DNA of 34,649 bases, taken from NCBI GenBank assembly GCA_903900795.1, contig CAIUOO010000117.1, positions 1-34,649 on the forward strand. Direction: 5' to 3'. Positions 2,230 through 31,566 of this stretch are shown piece after piece. The notes below the pieces were generated by a model. That model ran no database searches. It worked only from the letters and a program-made list of their open reading frames with translations, and had not been told where the DNA came from. The translations under genes were made by a program, and so were the position numbers. This DNA is from an uncultured Gemmatimonadota bacterium. GTDB taxonomy: Bacteria; Gemmatimonadota; Gemmatimonadetes; Gemmatimonadales; Gemmatimonadaceae. Within the stretch, counting starts at the first letter, position 1. The number at the start of each line of letters is the position of its first letter.

Positions 2230-2426
2230 CAACTGTACCGTCAACAGCAACGGCAACGGCGACTGCCAGAACACGGATACCACGGATTTACACAGAAATA
2301 ACACAGATAAACCGACAGCGCTTTTTGCTTATCCGTGGCCGTTTCCGTGTCATCGGTGATCTCCGTGTTCTGGCTCTTGTTTTTGCTGTTGTTTTTTGCT
2401 GTTGCTTTTTGCTGTGGCTGTTTCGG
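2230..2426. repeat. Composite palindromic repeat, copy A: 108-bp core (2266-2373) flanked by 12-13-bp tandem units
   Basis: Core GCCAGAACACGGATACCACGGAT...ATCGGTGATCTCCGTGTTCTGGC (imperfect inverted arms). It aligns end to end with 30435-30542. The 3' flank has tandem TTG(T/C)TTTTTGCTG-like units 2377-2426. Confidence 0.85.
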
Positions 2427-10317: not shown

Positions 10318-10364
10318 CGGTTCGTTTCCACGTGCCACTCCACTGGGATCCCGAGATCTCATGG

Positions 10365-10792
10365 AAAGTCGCCGGCCTATAAGCCGGGTTCTGTCAGTGC
10401 TGACATACGCAAGCGCACACCAACACCGGACGGTCATTCCTCTCGGCGTGCAGTCACCCACACGCTCCAGCAGCCTACCCGCGGCTCGACGTCTTGCGAC
10501 GTCCTTGCGAGACGGATCATCTCTCGCCGCTTATTTGGCCTTGCTCCGACTGGGGTTTACCGAGCCACCTTCGTTACCGAAGGCGCGGTGGGCTCTTACC
10601 CCACCCTTTCACCCTTACCGCAACATCGGTTGCCCGATGAGACGGCGGTTTGCTTTCTGTTGCACTGTCCGTCGCACGAAGCTCACGCCGCATGCGCCCA
10701 GGCGTTACCTGGCAGTCTACCCTGTGGAGCCCGGACTTTCCTCGGTGCCTGAACTTCCGTCCAGACATCGCGACCATCCGGCCGGCGACCGA
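10365..10792 (-). ncRNA. rnpB: RNase P RNA component (bacterial class A type)
   Basis: Minus strand contains GAGGAAAGTCCGGGCTCCACAGGGTAGACTGCCAGGTAACGCCTGGGCG near the 5' end and ACAGAACCCGGCTTAT near the 3' end. The P1 helix GGTCGCCGGCC/GGCCGGCGACT pairs the two ends. Confidence 0.97.
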
Positions 10793-25553: not shown

Positions 25554-28500
25554 ATGATTCCTGTCTTGCTTGAGCAGTGCTTTCCGCCGGATGTTCGCGA
25601 ACGCGGGGAAGCGTACATCGATCCGTTCGTGCTCACCCTTGAGCATGTGGATGCCGTGGCGGCGACCGCCGCGGTGCAGGGCACTCGCCTATATGGCGTG
25701 TTCCTGCGCCCGCGACCCGGGCGCCTGCACCTTGGCTGCACCTGCCCGCATGGGCAGGAGCATGGTGCGTGTAAGCATCTGTGGGCGCTGCTTCGCGTGC
25801 TGGACGCACAGGGCACGTTGGCGCCGCTGCTCGAGACCGCGGCGTCATCCAGCGCGGAACCGCAGGTCACCTTCGAGCGCCATGCGCTGGCGGTGATGAA
25901 GCCGCAGGCGCGGGCGATCGAAACGAAGTCCACTCCCGCACCGGAGTGGCAAACCGCGTTGCGCGACACCAGTGGTCGTCAGCGGTCGGTGTTTACCGAA
26001 ACGCGCGTCACCAACCGTGCCACGTCGCTCCCGGCTGATCGGCGCATCGTGTATCTCTTGCATCTCACCGAGAGCGCGCAGCATCGTGGCGTGCGTGTCG
26101 AGATCACGACGCAGCGCCGCGATCGTGACAGTGTGTGGGAAGAACCGAAGCACTTTCAGTACTCCATCGACGCCTGGTGCAATGCCCCCGATCCGGTCGA
26201 TCGGCAGCTCGCCGAAATGCTGCTCGGCAGCTCGGATGCACAGGGCATTGCCACCATGCCCACTGGCGGGTTCATCGTTCGCCCGCGGGCGTATCACACC
26301 ACCCTACGCATGATCTGTGACACGGGCCGCGCGCGGTTGCGCAGCAACCGTCCGTCGCTCGACGCCCGCATGATCTCGTGGGACGACGCGACGCCGTGGC
26401 ATGTCGCCATGCGGCTCGATCGGCCCACGCCCGACCAGTACCAGTTGGTGGGCGAGTTGTTGCGCGACGACACCGTGCGTCCCCTCAGCGATGCGAACTG
26501 GATTCACGAGTCAGGACTCGTGCTGTTCGGCACAATGCTGTCGCGCCTCGACAGTGATCAGGTGTGGCCGCTGGTACAGAAGCTGTGGACCGCGGGCGAG
26601 TTCGAACTGGGCGATGATCCGTCGGCGTTTCTGGCCGAGTACCATGCGCTGCCCAACATGCCGCGCTTGTCGTTGCCCGCCGGCGAAATGCACATCGAGA
26701 GCGATGCGGCGCCCGTTCCCATGGTGCGGGTGACGAATGGCGTCGGCTCGTGGCGCACGTCGCCGTCGTGGCTCACGCTGCGTTTCCGGTACGGCTCGGA
26801 GTTCGTGGACGCGGCGTCCGCGGCCTCGACCTGCTTCGACAGGAAGACCCGTACGCTGTATCGCCGGCGCGCGGCGGCCGAACGCAATGCGATGACGCGC
26901 CTGCGGGCGCTCGGCGCGCAGGAGATGTATTCGTACGCCGAGAGCCGCATGTCGCTCATGGTGCAGCCGCATACGTTGCCACGGCTGATCTCCACACTCG
27001 TGCGCGACGGATGGCTGATCGAGTCCGACGGGGCTACGTTCGTGGCGCCGAGTCCATTGCAGGTGCGTGTGAGCTCGGGCATCGACTGGTTCGATCTCAC
27101 CGGGACGCTGCGGTATGGCGACCATGAGCTCACGTTGTCGCAGCTCCTTACGGCCATGGAAGAAGGCTCCGAGATCATCGAGTTCGGTAACGGTGTGATC
27201 GGCTTTCTTCCCGATGAATCACTCGATGAACTGCGCGCGCTCCTGGCGATCGGTGTGCGTCGCGGCGATGGCATTCGGTTCCGTTCGTCGCAGCTCGCGT
27301 TGCTCGATGTGTTGCTGGCCGCACTCCCCGATGTCGATGTGGACGAAACGCTCGCCTCGGGTCGTGCGGAGCTCAAGAAATTCCAGGGGGTCAACGCGAT
27401 CCCGGTACCGCGCGGCTTCGTGGGCACCTTGCGCGGCTATCAGGAAGAGGGGCTGTCATGGTTCGGTTTCCTGCGTCGCTTCGCGCTGGGCGGATGTCTG
27501 GCCGACGACATGGGTCTGGGCAAGACGATCCAGGTGCTCGCCATGCTCGAGGCGCGACGCGAAGAAGGCGCCGGTATGTCGTTGCTGGTGGTGCCGCGTT
27601 CGCTCGTGTTCAACTGGGTGCGCGAGGCGGCGCGCTTTACGCCGGCGCTCAAGGTGCACGACCTCAGTCACGCGGAACGGTCGGTCGAGGACCTCGACAC
27701 GGTCGACGCGCACCTGGCGATCACGACCTACGGTACGTTGCGCCGCGATATCGCCCGACTCGGCTCGCGCCGATTCGATTACGTGATTCTCGACGAGGCG
27801 CAGGCGATCAAGAACGCCGGCACCGCCACCGCGAAAGCGTGTCGGTTGTTGCAGGCCGATCACCGGCTGGCGTTGAGTGGTACGCCGATCGAGAATCGGA
27901 TCGAGGAACTTTGGAGTCTGTTCGAGTTCCTCAACCCGGGTATGCTGGGTGCGGCCACGACCTTCAGCTCGGCCACGCGCACGTTGGCGGCGTTGCGCCC
28001 CGGCATGCCAGCGGGCACCGGCGTATCGGCGCAGGAGCTGCTGTCACGTGCGTTGCGGCCGGTGGTATTGCGACGCACGAAGGCCATGGTGGCGAAGGAA
28101 TTGCCGGCCCGTATCGAGCAGACCATCGAAGTGGAGCTCGAGCCCGGGCAGCGCGCGTTCTACGAACAGCTGCGCAGTCAGTACGCTACGAGTCTGCTTG
28201 ATCGTGTGGAGCGCGACGGCCTTGGCAAGTCACGCATGCATATCCTCGAGGCGCTGCTGCGCCTGCGTCAGGCGGCCTGTCATCCGGCGTTGGTCGATCC
28301 GACCAAGGCTTCGCTGCCGTCGGCCAAACTCGATGCGGTGGTGCCCGCGTTGCAGGAGATCGCGGCCGAGGGCAACAAGGTGCTGGTGTTCTCGCAGTTC
28401 ACGAGCTTCCTGTCGTTGCTGCGGGCGCGTCTCGATGCGCTGGAAGTGCCGTACGAGTATTTGGACGGACGCACGCGTGACCGTCAGGCCCGCGTGGACC

Positions 28501-28826
28501 GGTTCCAGTCGGCCGATGGACCGCCGCTGTTCCTGATCAGCCTCAAGGCGGGCGGACACGGGCTCAACCTCACGGCCGCCGAGTACGTGTATCTGCTCGA
28601 TCCGTGGTGGAATCCGGCCGTCGAAGCGCAGGCGATCGACCGGGCACATCGTATTGGCCAGACCAATCAGGTCATCGCCACGCGCGTCGTGGCCCGCGAT
28701 ACGATCGAGTCAAAGATTCTCGAGCTGCAGGCCAGCAAGCGGGCGCTGGCTGACGCCATTCTCAGCGAGGACAAGGGCGGACTCGCAGGCGTCGGGCGTG
28801 AGGAGCTGCAGTTGCTGCTGGGGTAA
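25554..28826 (+). CDS. SNF2-family DEAD/DEAH helicase with N-terminal SWIM zinc finger
   Basis: SWIM-type [115 protein letters not shown]. Confidence 0.95.
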   Translation: [1090 protein letters not shown]

Positions 28827-28860
28827 CGGCGAAGTACGGGGTGCTGTCGGACGGGTTGCC

Positions 28861-28947
28861 GTGAGTATCGAGTGGTGAGTTCACGTTTGGAGTCGCAAGT
28901 TTTTTCCACTCAGAACTCCAGACTTCAACTCACCACTCAGTACTCAC
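28861..28947. repeat. Long imperfect palindrome in convergent intergenic region
   Basis: GTGAGTATCGAGTGGTGAGTT (28861-28881) versus AACTCACCACTCAGTACTCAC (28927-28947): 19 of 21 positions complementary, with a GAGT/ACTC-rich interior. Confidence 0.85.
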
Positions 28948-28959
28948 GTGACGGCCAGT

Positions 28960-30276
28960 TCAGCGCTTCGATCCGGCGGCCGCCTTCTCCACCGCTGCCA
29001 TCACCCGCAGCAAATTCCCGCCCCAGATCTTCTCGATCTCGCTCTTCGAGTAGCCGCGCCGTACGAGTTCCGCCGTGACGTTCAACGATTCCGACGCGTT
29101 GCGCCAGCCGTCCACGCCGCCGCCGCCGTCGAAGTCGGAGCTGATGCCGACGTGGTCAATGCCGATGAGTTTCGCCACATAATCAATGTGGTTCACGAAG
29201 TCCTTCACGTTCGCCGGTGGATCTGACGGATAGCGCCGTGCCGTGATGTCTTCCTGCTTCGCGAGATACGCGTTGCGCTTCTCGTCAGCGAGCGCCTGAA
29301 TCTGCGCCTGCTGTTCGCGGCGATCGGTGGCGGTGATGCCGAACTCGGCGCGCAGATCGGTCATCGCGGCGGCGCGCGCCTGTTCACGCGGCAGGTCGCG
29401 GGTGGGGTCGCACTTCACGTACGCGTTGAATGCCACGAGCTGAATCACGCCGCCGTTTCTCTTGAGCGCGGTGAGTTGCTCGTCGTCCATGTTGCGGCTG
29501 TGATTGCAGATCGCGCGCACGCCCGAATGCGACGCGATGATCGGCGCCTTCGAGATGGCGATGGTCTGCAGCATCGACTGTTTCGATGGGTGCGATACGT
29601 CGATCATCATGCCGAGCCGATTCATTTCCACGATGACTTGCTTGCCAAGCGGGCTCAGACCGTTGTGCATCCACACACCGTCGCGTTCGCCGGTGTTGGA
29701 GTCGGAGAGCTGGCTGTGTCCGTTGTGCGCCAGCGACATGTAGCGACCGCCGCGATCGAAGAATTTCTTGACGTTCGTGAGGTCGGCGCCAATCGGAAAA
29801 CCGTTTTCGACACCGATGAAGATCACGCGCTTTCCCGCCGCATGAATGCGACGTGCATCGGCGGCGGTGTAGGCGATTTCCGAGCGGGTTGGGGCGAGCT
29901 CTTCGGTGAGACGGTGAATCGCGTCGAACTTCTCCAGCGCCTGCGCATTGGCGCTGGCGAACGCGGCGTCGTCGAGCTTTGGTGATTGTCCTACGTACAC
30001 CACCAGAAACGCCCCGCCGAGTCCGCCTTCTTCCATCTTGGTCAGGTCGACCTGCGTACGTGGCAGTTTCTGGGTGTAGTTCGGGCCGCTGACGGTGAAG
30101 TTGGCCGGCGCGATATCCACGTGGGTGTCGATGGACAGCACGGCGGCGTGGATGGCCTTTGCGTTGGCCGTCACGGCGGCTTCATCGGTAACCGGCTTGC
30201 GGCCCTGCGCGGTCAGCAGGGCCGGTGCGGCGACGCATGCAATGGCGGCATACCGCAGAGTGTTCGAGATCGGCAT
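28960..30276 (-). CDS. Membrane dipeptidase (peptidase family M19), secreted
   Basis: N-terminal signal MPISNTLRYAAIACVAAPALLTAQ; IDTHVDI, YMSLAHNGHSQLSDS, GMMIDVSHPSKQSMLQTIAISKAPIIASHSGVRAICNHSRNMDDEQL, IDHVGISSDFDGGGGV. Confidence 0.95.
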   Translation of the reverse strand: MPISNTLRYAAIACVAAPALLTAQGRKPVTDEAAVTANAKAIHAAVLSIDTHVDIAPANFTVSGPNYTQKLPRTQVDLTKMEEGGLGGAFLVVYVGQSPKLDDAAFASANAQALEKFDAIHRLTEELAPTRSEIAYTAADARRIHAAGKRVIFIGVENGFPIGADLTNVKKFFDRGGRYMSLAHNGHSQLSDSNTGERDGVWMHNGLSPLGKQVIVEMNRLGMMIDVSHPSKQSMLQTIAISKAPIIASHSGVRAICNHSRNMDDEQLTALKRNGGVIQLVAFNAYVKCDPTRDLPREQARAAAMTDLRAEFGITATDRREQQAQIQALADEKRNAYLAKQEDITARRYPSDPPANVKDFVNHIDYVAKLIGIDHVGISSDFDGGGGVDGWRNASESLNVTAELVRRGYSKSEIEKIWGGNLLRVMAAVEKAAAGSKR

Positions 30277-30375
30277 AGTCTGAGTATCTGAGGGGACTGC
30301 GGGGTGTAACGTGAACCGTTGCTACTAGAGTCTACGCTCGACCAGACCGACCCGCTGGTTCGGTACATGGGGCGC

Positions 30376-30589
30376 GCGAACCGCTACCGCGAACCGTTAC
30401 GCGAAGGGCTACTGCGAACGGCTACTGCGAACAGCCAGAACACGGAGACCACGGATTCTCACAGAACCAACACGGATAAGCCAACGGCGCTTTTGGCTTA
30501 TCCGTGGTCGTTTCGGTGTGATCCGTGGTCTCCGTGTTCTGGCTGTTCGCAGTGGTCGTTATTTGTGGCCGTTATTTGTGGCCGTTTGG
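30376..30589. repeat. Composite palindromic repeat, copy B: 108-bp core (30435-30542) with inverted 13-bp tandem flanks
   Basis: Perfect 32-nt outer arms 30425-30456/30521-30552; perfect 14-nt inner arms 30471-30484/30493-30506; left tandem units GCGAACnGCTACT 30376-30434; right units (T/A)GTGG(C/T)CGTTATT 30551-30589. Confidence 0.9.
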
Positions 30590-30642: not shown

Positions 30643-31566
30643 TCATCCCACGCGCCGCGCTCCTCGCTGTCCCGTCACTGCTAACACCACCAGCGTGAGC
30701 ACGTAGGGGATGGCGAGGAACAGCTGGTACGGAATGCCGGTCCACCCCATCGATTGGAAGAGCGTCTGAAGCGAGGTCGCGGCTCCGAATAGCAAGGCTG
30801 CGGCGGCGACGCCAAGCGGGCGCCACCGTCCCAACACTACGATCGCAATCGCGATAAAGCCGCGTCCGGCGGACATCCCCTCTGCGAACGTGCCCGCCTG
30901 CGCCAGCACCAATGTGGCACCGGCGAGGCCGGCCATCGCGCCGGCAAACAGCACCGCGTACAGCTGCGTTCGTCGTGGCGATATCCCCGCCGCAATGGCC
31001 GCCGGTGGGTATTCGCCGACGGCCCGCAGCGCCAGCCCGGCATGGGTTCGTTGCATCCACCATGCGAGCAGCGGCGCGATCAGGTACAGCGCGTAGGTCA
31101 CCAACGGCTGCGCAAAGAAGGCGCGACCGATCACAGGCAACGCCGAGAGTACGGGGATGGCGTGCGTGGCTGCCGTTGGGGTGGTGAGCGCCACGCCGCC
31201 CGATCCGTATACCGTGCGATACACGGTGCCCGTGAGCCCAAGCGCGAACAGTGTGATCGCCGTGCCGGTGATGATCTGGTCGGCGCGCAGCCCCACCGCG
31301 AACAGGGCGAAGAGCGCGGCGACCACCAGGCCCGTCACGGCGCCGGCCACAAAGCCTCCACCCACCCCGATCGCTCCGGCCGCGATCGTCGCACTGAGCG
31401 CCCCTGCGATGATCGAACCCTCGAGTCCGATGTTGATCACACCGGCCCGTTCGCTCACGCTCTCGCCCAGCGCCGCATACGCCAGTGGCGTCGCGGTGCG
31501 CACCGTCGCCTCTAGCAATCCAGCAGCGACGGCCAGCGCGCCCACGCTCACGGACACGTCTGGCAT
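30643..31566 (-). CDS. ABC transporter permease (BMP/simple sugar-nucleoside type, YufQ-like)
   Basis: LEATVRTATPLAYAALGESVSERAGVINIGLEGSIIAGA..., typical of the second permease of BMP-family importers. Confidence 0.92.
   Translation of the reverse strand: MPDVSVSVGALAVAAGLLEATVRTATPLAYAALGESVSERAGVINIGLEGSIIAGALSATIAAGAIGVGGGFVAGAVTGLVVAALFALFAVGLRADQIITGTAITLFALGLTGTVYRTVYGSGGVALTTPTAATHAIPVLSALPVIGRAFFAQPLVTYALYLIAPLLAWWMQRTHAGLALRAVGEYPPAAIAAGISPRRTQLYAVLFAGAMAGLAGATLVLAQAGTFAEGMSAGRGFIAIAIVVLGRWRPLGVAAAALLFGAATSLQTLFQSMGWTGIPYQLFLAIPYVLTLVVLAVTGQRGARRVG

Follow-up and report, generated by a model that had tools for sequence, protein, structure and literature searches.

The window analysed here, a stretch of 34,649 nt from an uncultured Gemmatimonadota bacterium, carries two copies of a dispersed hairpin family with a core of about 119 bp, whose members lie mostly 3' of genes and bear short tandem arrays at the feet of their stems. 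These arrays are periodic and phased from the end of the core, and they change from one species to the next at sites that keep the hairpin. The family is read as a new one of 3'-end hairpins, comparable to ERIC or REP repeats, with VNTR feet derived from misaligned replication. The account preferred, which is considered somewhat more likely than not, is that of a family belonging to one clade of Gemmatimonas, in which the foot arrays were made by slippage and the hairpin has a role in RNA at the 3' ends of genes.

Two copies of the hairpin in the window

The core of copy B is a quasi-palindrome at 30430-30548, from which pairing continues to 30424-30553 and, imperfectly, to 30404-30573, as indicated by the inverted arms (30404-30484 and 30493-30573; 81 nt, 79% complementary) and by the predicted RNA fold (-149.8 kcal/mol, z -14). 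The left foot array, at 30375-30432, reads outward on the minus strand as 12-13-mers resembling TAGCCGTTCGCAG (in order, TGGCTGTTCGCAG/TAGCCGTTCGCAG/TAGCCCTTCGCG/...), the last of them falling within the end of the core, and the right foot array, at 30540-30589, reads outward on the plus strand as TGGCTGTTCGCAG followed by three 13-mers resembling TGGYCGTTATTTG (TGGCTGTTCGCAG/TGGTCGTTATTTG/TGGCCGTTATTTG/TGGCCGTTTGGAG). On both sides the outward reading is TGGCYGTT plus 4-5 nt and starts within the core's own end, and the two arrays mirror one another around the core. TRF identified the left array at 30375-30432 (period 13, 4.5 copies, 82% match, 4% indel), where direct repeats were also found, and the right array at 30552-30586 (period 13, 2.7 copies, 95% match), the three 13-mers spanning 30551-30589. 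None of 2000 dinucleotide shuffles reached the score of either array (p<=0.0005), the left scoring 17.0 against a shuffle maximum of 13.5 and the right 19.5 against 11.5. When the whole window was scanned in 1383 windows of 75 nt, nine equalled or exceeded the left-array score and six the right-array score, and the high-scoring windows beyond the two palindromes correspond to two 15-mer arrays at ~13.6 and ~15.9 kb. The first-pass annotation had described about 4.6 units of 12-13 nt on the left, three 13-mers on the right, an opposite orientation of the two arrays and a symmetry that extends beyond the stem; all of this is borne out, including the units that it quoted. It had also placed the arrays beside the palindrome, and here a correction is needed: they do flank it, but they start with the palindrome's last hexamer rather than adjacent to it.

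Copy B is located between two minus-strand genes and, because of this arrangement, is 3' of only one of them, from which it is separated by 95 nt, farther than is typical of the family. The gene to the left (28960-30276, minus strand, ORF of 438 aa) has its start facing the element and is conserved beside the site in genomes G017, G027, G026 and G020; the gene to the right (30643-31566, minus strand, ORF of 307 aa) has its stop facing the element and is present in 28 of the 30 genomes of the genus.

Copy A follows the same plan as copy B, with hexamers at the left foot and 13-mers at the right. Its core quasi-palindrome (2261-2378) is 85% identical to that of copy B, its left foot array (2242-2260, minus strand) is the hexamer (CAACGG)3, which is (GCCGTT)n when read outward, and its right foot array (2380-2423, plus strand) consists of 3.4 copies of the 13-mer TTTTTGCTGTTGC. 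Both were found by TRF, and the score of neither was reached by any of 2000 dinucleotide shuffles (p<=0.0005). Elsewhere in the window, a different quasi-palindrome (28860-28948, arm CGTGAGTATCGAGTGGTGAGTTCACGTTTGGAGT) lies between the convergent genes 25554-28826 and 28960-30276, with similar hairpins in genome G029 (L242, L249, L255), and positions 10364-10789 on the minus strand encode a bacterial RNase P RNA of class A.

Anatomy of the core and periodicity of its feet

The family consensus is AACAGCCAGAACACGGATnCCACnGATnnCACnGAACCAACACGGATAAGCnAACAGCGCTTTTnGCTTATCTGTGTTGTTTCCGTGTnATCCGTGnTCTCCGTGTTCTGGCTGTT. The core measures ~113-130 bp, and 113-121 bp in most copies, and its arms are built of a 9-nt micro-repeat (self-match of 0.48 at lag 9 vs 0.29 in shuffled sequence). 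Both feet end in GCYGTT, the ends AACAGCC and GGCTGTT being mutually paired, and in most copies this terminal hexamer extends outward as (GCNGTT)n. The resulting outward flank, GC[TC]GTT GC[CT]GTT and so on, is phased from the core end and fades over about 30 nt; GCNGTT occurs 1.86 times per 60 nt in outward flanks vs 0.17 times in control flanks 200 nt away. Covariation calculated with RNAalifold is small (-0.26, with changes on both sides in 3 of 31 pairs) because most pairs are invariant, and it therefore neither shows nor excludes conservation of the structure.

In a test in which an array had to start at the core edge, 119 of 209 ends exceeded the 99% control level, which served as the threshold, and 95 exceeded the control maximum. 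The right foot of copy B, whose first unit has diverged, does not score in this stricter test for that reason and is detected by TRF and shuffling. The period among the 119 periodic ends was 6 in 93, 12 in 13, 13 in eight, 7 in four and 9 in one, and so the 12-13-bp unit reported earlier holds at copy B and not as a rule of the family. Given the dominance of period 6 and the start of the array inside the core, the 12-13-mers of copy B are a higher-order or locally altered version of the hexamer array. The first-pass annotation had itself named copies of the core without periodic flanks as the observation that would speak against it, and such copies exist in part: among the 98 elements with both feet assessable, both were periodic in 29, one in 55 and neither in 14. 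The arrays are thus optional and variable.

Turnover between species and the origin of the arrays

Unit number and sequence were compared across copies and species, as had been proposed, and the arrays were found to differ in length and period at orthologous sites. The comparison drew on 42 ortholog pairs, with one genome per species. In these pairs 59 ends have an array in one or both of the orthologs; with the core kept, a length difference of 5 nt or more was seen at 42 of these ends and a different best period at 28. Many of the comparisons share genomes, so that the counts are not independent. At the copy-B site, G017 carries GCGAACA repeats on the left and GCAGTTGTAGTT repeats on the right, and G027 a short GCAGTT array. 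In locus L136 of G029 the core ends in CAGGCTGTT, a variant of its own end, and is followed by (CAGGCTGTT)6, with no 9-mers of this type at the same foot in its orthologs. Because this copy repeats its own variant terminal 9-mer, the units must have been duplicated locally from the foot; together with the variation at orthologous loci, this supports the earlier suggestion that terminal units are amplified iteratively. The similarity of the left and right arrays within a copy hardly exceeds that of arrays taken from different copies (9.32 vs 8.85, sd 0.25), which argues that the feet grow independently and led to the rejection of a joint evolution of the two arrays of one copy.

It is suggested that the arrays arise by tandem duplication at the foot. 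On either side of the GCYGTT at each foot are short direct repeats (GTT...GTT 9 nt apart and GC...GC 6 nt apart). One strand would fold into the hairpin during replication, the polymerase would pause at its foot, and the nascent end may then slip back by one short direct repeat and be extended again, each slip adding a unit of 6, 9 or 12-13 nt immediately outside the stem. Such slippage, if independent at each foot, would leave arrays that are mutually inverted, that differ by copy and that change between species without loss of the hairpin; duplication between direct repeats would in this way explain the position, phase, mirror orientation, copy differences and turnover of the arrays. In its simplest form, as generic slippage at any hairpin, the proposal was rejected: under the same generous scoring, the other long hairpins of G029 had a foot array at 1 of 36 ends, as compared with 109 of 209 in the core family. 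Stalling alone is therefore insufficient, and a seed sequence or a family-specific factor is needed: the GCYGTT foot may seed arrays unusually well, or there may be a function or machinery particular to the family.

Several further rearrangements were observed. Between the orthologs L022 and L059 the core is inverted in place (93% identity inverted vs 79% direct), as expected of an active long hairpin, and several other loci, copies A and B among them, show weaker signs of such inversion. Larger units are duplicated as well: whole palindromes are amplified in tandem in L108, L027 and L154, with steps of about 140-165, 228 and 255 bp, four palindromes at steps of roughly 140-165 bp standing at the copy-A site in G020 and steps of about 228 bp being seen in C451. 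In two orthologous gaps of G029 (L240:7837-8116 and L237:18633-18836) the element is replaced by a different palindrome family with other micro-repeat arms, which suggests that it is the position of the gap, and not the sequence, that is kept.

In some 0.8 Mb of G029 (L220-L259), long hairpins with arms of 9-15-nt micro-repeats make up at least six more families, among them CGCGAAGnn, CTCTGCGCCCTCTGCG, CTTAGGnAGCAGGGAGGAGG, AAGTAAGGGGTAGGGAGTACGG, GGCGCTAAGAnTCAACG and GAGTnnTGAGTGGTGAGTT, nearly all without foot arrays. The repeat-built arms of these families and the 9-nt repeats of the core arms raise the possibility, judged improbable at present, that palindromes grow outward from their feet, outside units being copied across the hairpin by template switching to become new stem. 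A point in its favour is that the first array unit of copy B (CGCAGT) already pairs with its mirror. If general, outward growth of this kind would explain how long hairpin repeats arise de novo in bacteria without a transposase.

Distribution and descent of the family

About 40 sites in the 3.97-Mb source assembly carry the core, and the two genomes in which copies were counted hold about 20 and about 40. Carriers make up 10 of 30 genomes of the genus, which would be Gemmatimonas and is represented mostly by freshwater MAGs. No carrier was found among 31 genomes of the family and order, and the core was absent outside the genus among 298 genomes sampled across the phylum. A phage or plasmid origin was considered and rejected, as no match to the core was found in records of plasmids, phages and viral contigs. 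In G029, which has a 5.18-Mb chromosome, nearly all of the ~20 copies lie within 3.16-5.17 Mb, with one at 1.94 Mb and none at 0-1.9 Mb, a clustering that is perhaps related to distance from the origin. Hairpins with CACGGAT micro-repeats like those of the core arm were seen in the archaeon Candidatus Methanoperedens (L198) and in Terrimonas of the Bacteroidota (L149), and a partial match to this type in a second Candidatus Methanoperedens sequence (L164).

A dispersed, multicopy, short, non-coding palindrome with near-identical terminal inverted repeats has the form of a MITE, and its patchy occurrence within the genus would also suit a non-autonomous transposon, the arrays then being its mobile ends or its preferred target. 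This is the most serious of the alternatives, yet it is still rather unlikely for several reasons: first, for most copies in genome G000 an orthologous copy stands at the corresponding site of another carrier, so that they are old, and in the gene tree of the copy-B locus all nine sampled carriers form one clade (support 0.988), so that the positions, in contrast to those expected of a MITE, are old and vertically inherited. Second, no clean empty site or target duplication was seen, absences of the element among orthologous gaps being either deletion remnants or other palindromes. Third, no partner transposase was found in the two families searched, Y1_Tnp being absent from G029, a carrier with a complete genome, and RVT_1 being present in no carrier. 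Finally, the arrays are inverted around the core and so cannot be a pre-existing tandem target.

Gene context and a possible role at 3' ends

Gaps that hold the element are convergent in 43 cases, tandem in 46 and divergent in eight, against 41, 123 and 66 in a background of gaps of 100-600 bp, genes having been called with a simple codon-usage caller; the p value of 1.3e-7 is optimistic because orthologous copies are not independent, and the safer figure is that of the G000 copies alone, in which divergent depletion and convergent excess lie in the same direction with p about 0.02 each. The distance between a stop codon and the start of the stem is usually about 30 nt. In fold and context, a hairpin just downstream of genes, the element resembles an intrinsic terminator, and T is enriched and A depleted in the first 12 nt outward (36% and 7% vs 18% and 16% in control flanks). 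A standard U-rich tract after the stem was not found, and a terminator scan returned one site where 1.8 were expected by chance. Judged by its location, the hairpin is most likely an RNA structure of 3' ends that serves one or both neighbours as a terminator or 3' protector.

This context raises the possibility that the arrays themselves are selected, the outward GCNGTT units serving as binding sites or supplying a bidirectional terminator with the U/G-rich tail that it needs. The nucleotide bias outside the stem, the strong 3' location bias and the restriction of arrays to the core hairpin family agree with such a function. It is nevertheless doubtful, slightly more so than a mobile origin, given the copies that have one periodic foot or none, the free change of unit and length between orthologs and the lack of terminator-like sites above chance.

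Relation to known repeats and significance

The ERIC or IRU elements of enterobacteria are imperfect palindromes of about 120-130 bp that are dispersed, intergenic and probably transcribed, and the core family is like them in palindrome size, dispersal and intergenic place. The two are not known to share any recognisable sequence similarity, and ERIC is not known to carry tandem arrays that grow from its feet. No paper describing the hairpin family was found in the open-licence literature searched.

REPs are likewise intergenic palindromes near gene 3' ends, mostly between convergent and unidirectional genes (PMC3733652), and this shared placement is what could suggest an element made by a REP-associated tyrosine transposase (RAYT). 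However, REPs measure 20-40 bp, carry GTAG or CGTC as an unpaired tag and are often accompanied by a RAYT (PMC3733652), whereas the core is far longer and has no conserved tag, its ends being mutually paired. Among carriers 3 of 10 have a RAYT gene, G029 not being one of them, and among non-carriers 5 of 20; the palindrome near the RAYT of G000 is a different one (TTCAAGGGGTCAGAGTCGTTGAA). An origin through RAYT or reverse transcriptase, the genes for which do not match carriage across the genus, was accordingly rejected, and a RAYT-made element is very improbable; the family works like ERIC or REP repeats but is not REP, in size, in tag or in RAYT. The iteron-like process proposed in the first-pass annotation, for which tandem 13-mers adjoining a palindrome are the one point in favour, can practically be dismissed, as a family of about 40 copies, dispersed at the 3' ends of genes, with a variable unit and no match to plasmid or phage records, is unlike the fixed-unit repeats of a single replication or partition site.

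The foot arrays resemble bacterial minisatellites or VNTRs, in that they consist of tandem units of 6-13 nt, present in different numbers at a given locus in different lineages, as seen here between species only. They differ from them in that a dispersed hairpin acts as their seed and anchor, with one array per foot, in opposite orientation. They are ready VNTR markers for freshwater Gemmatimonas. In addition, orthologous sites in about ten species, at which the hairpin is kept and the feet change, constitute a natural replicated experiment on the effects of long hairpins, and through their comparison hairpin-linked tandem duplication, arm-to-arm correction and in-place inversion become testable. 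The family thus bears on how palindromic repeat families of bacteria originate and persist without an identified transposase.
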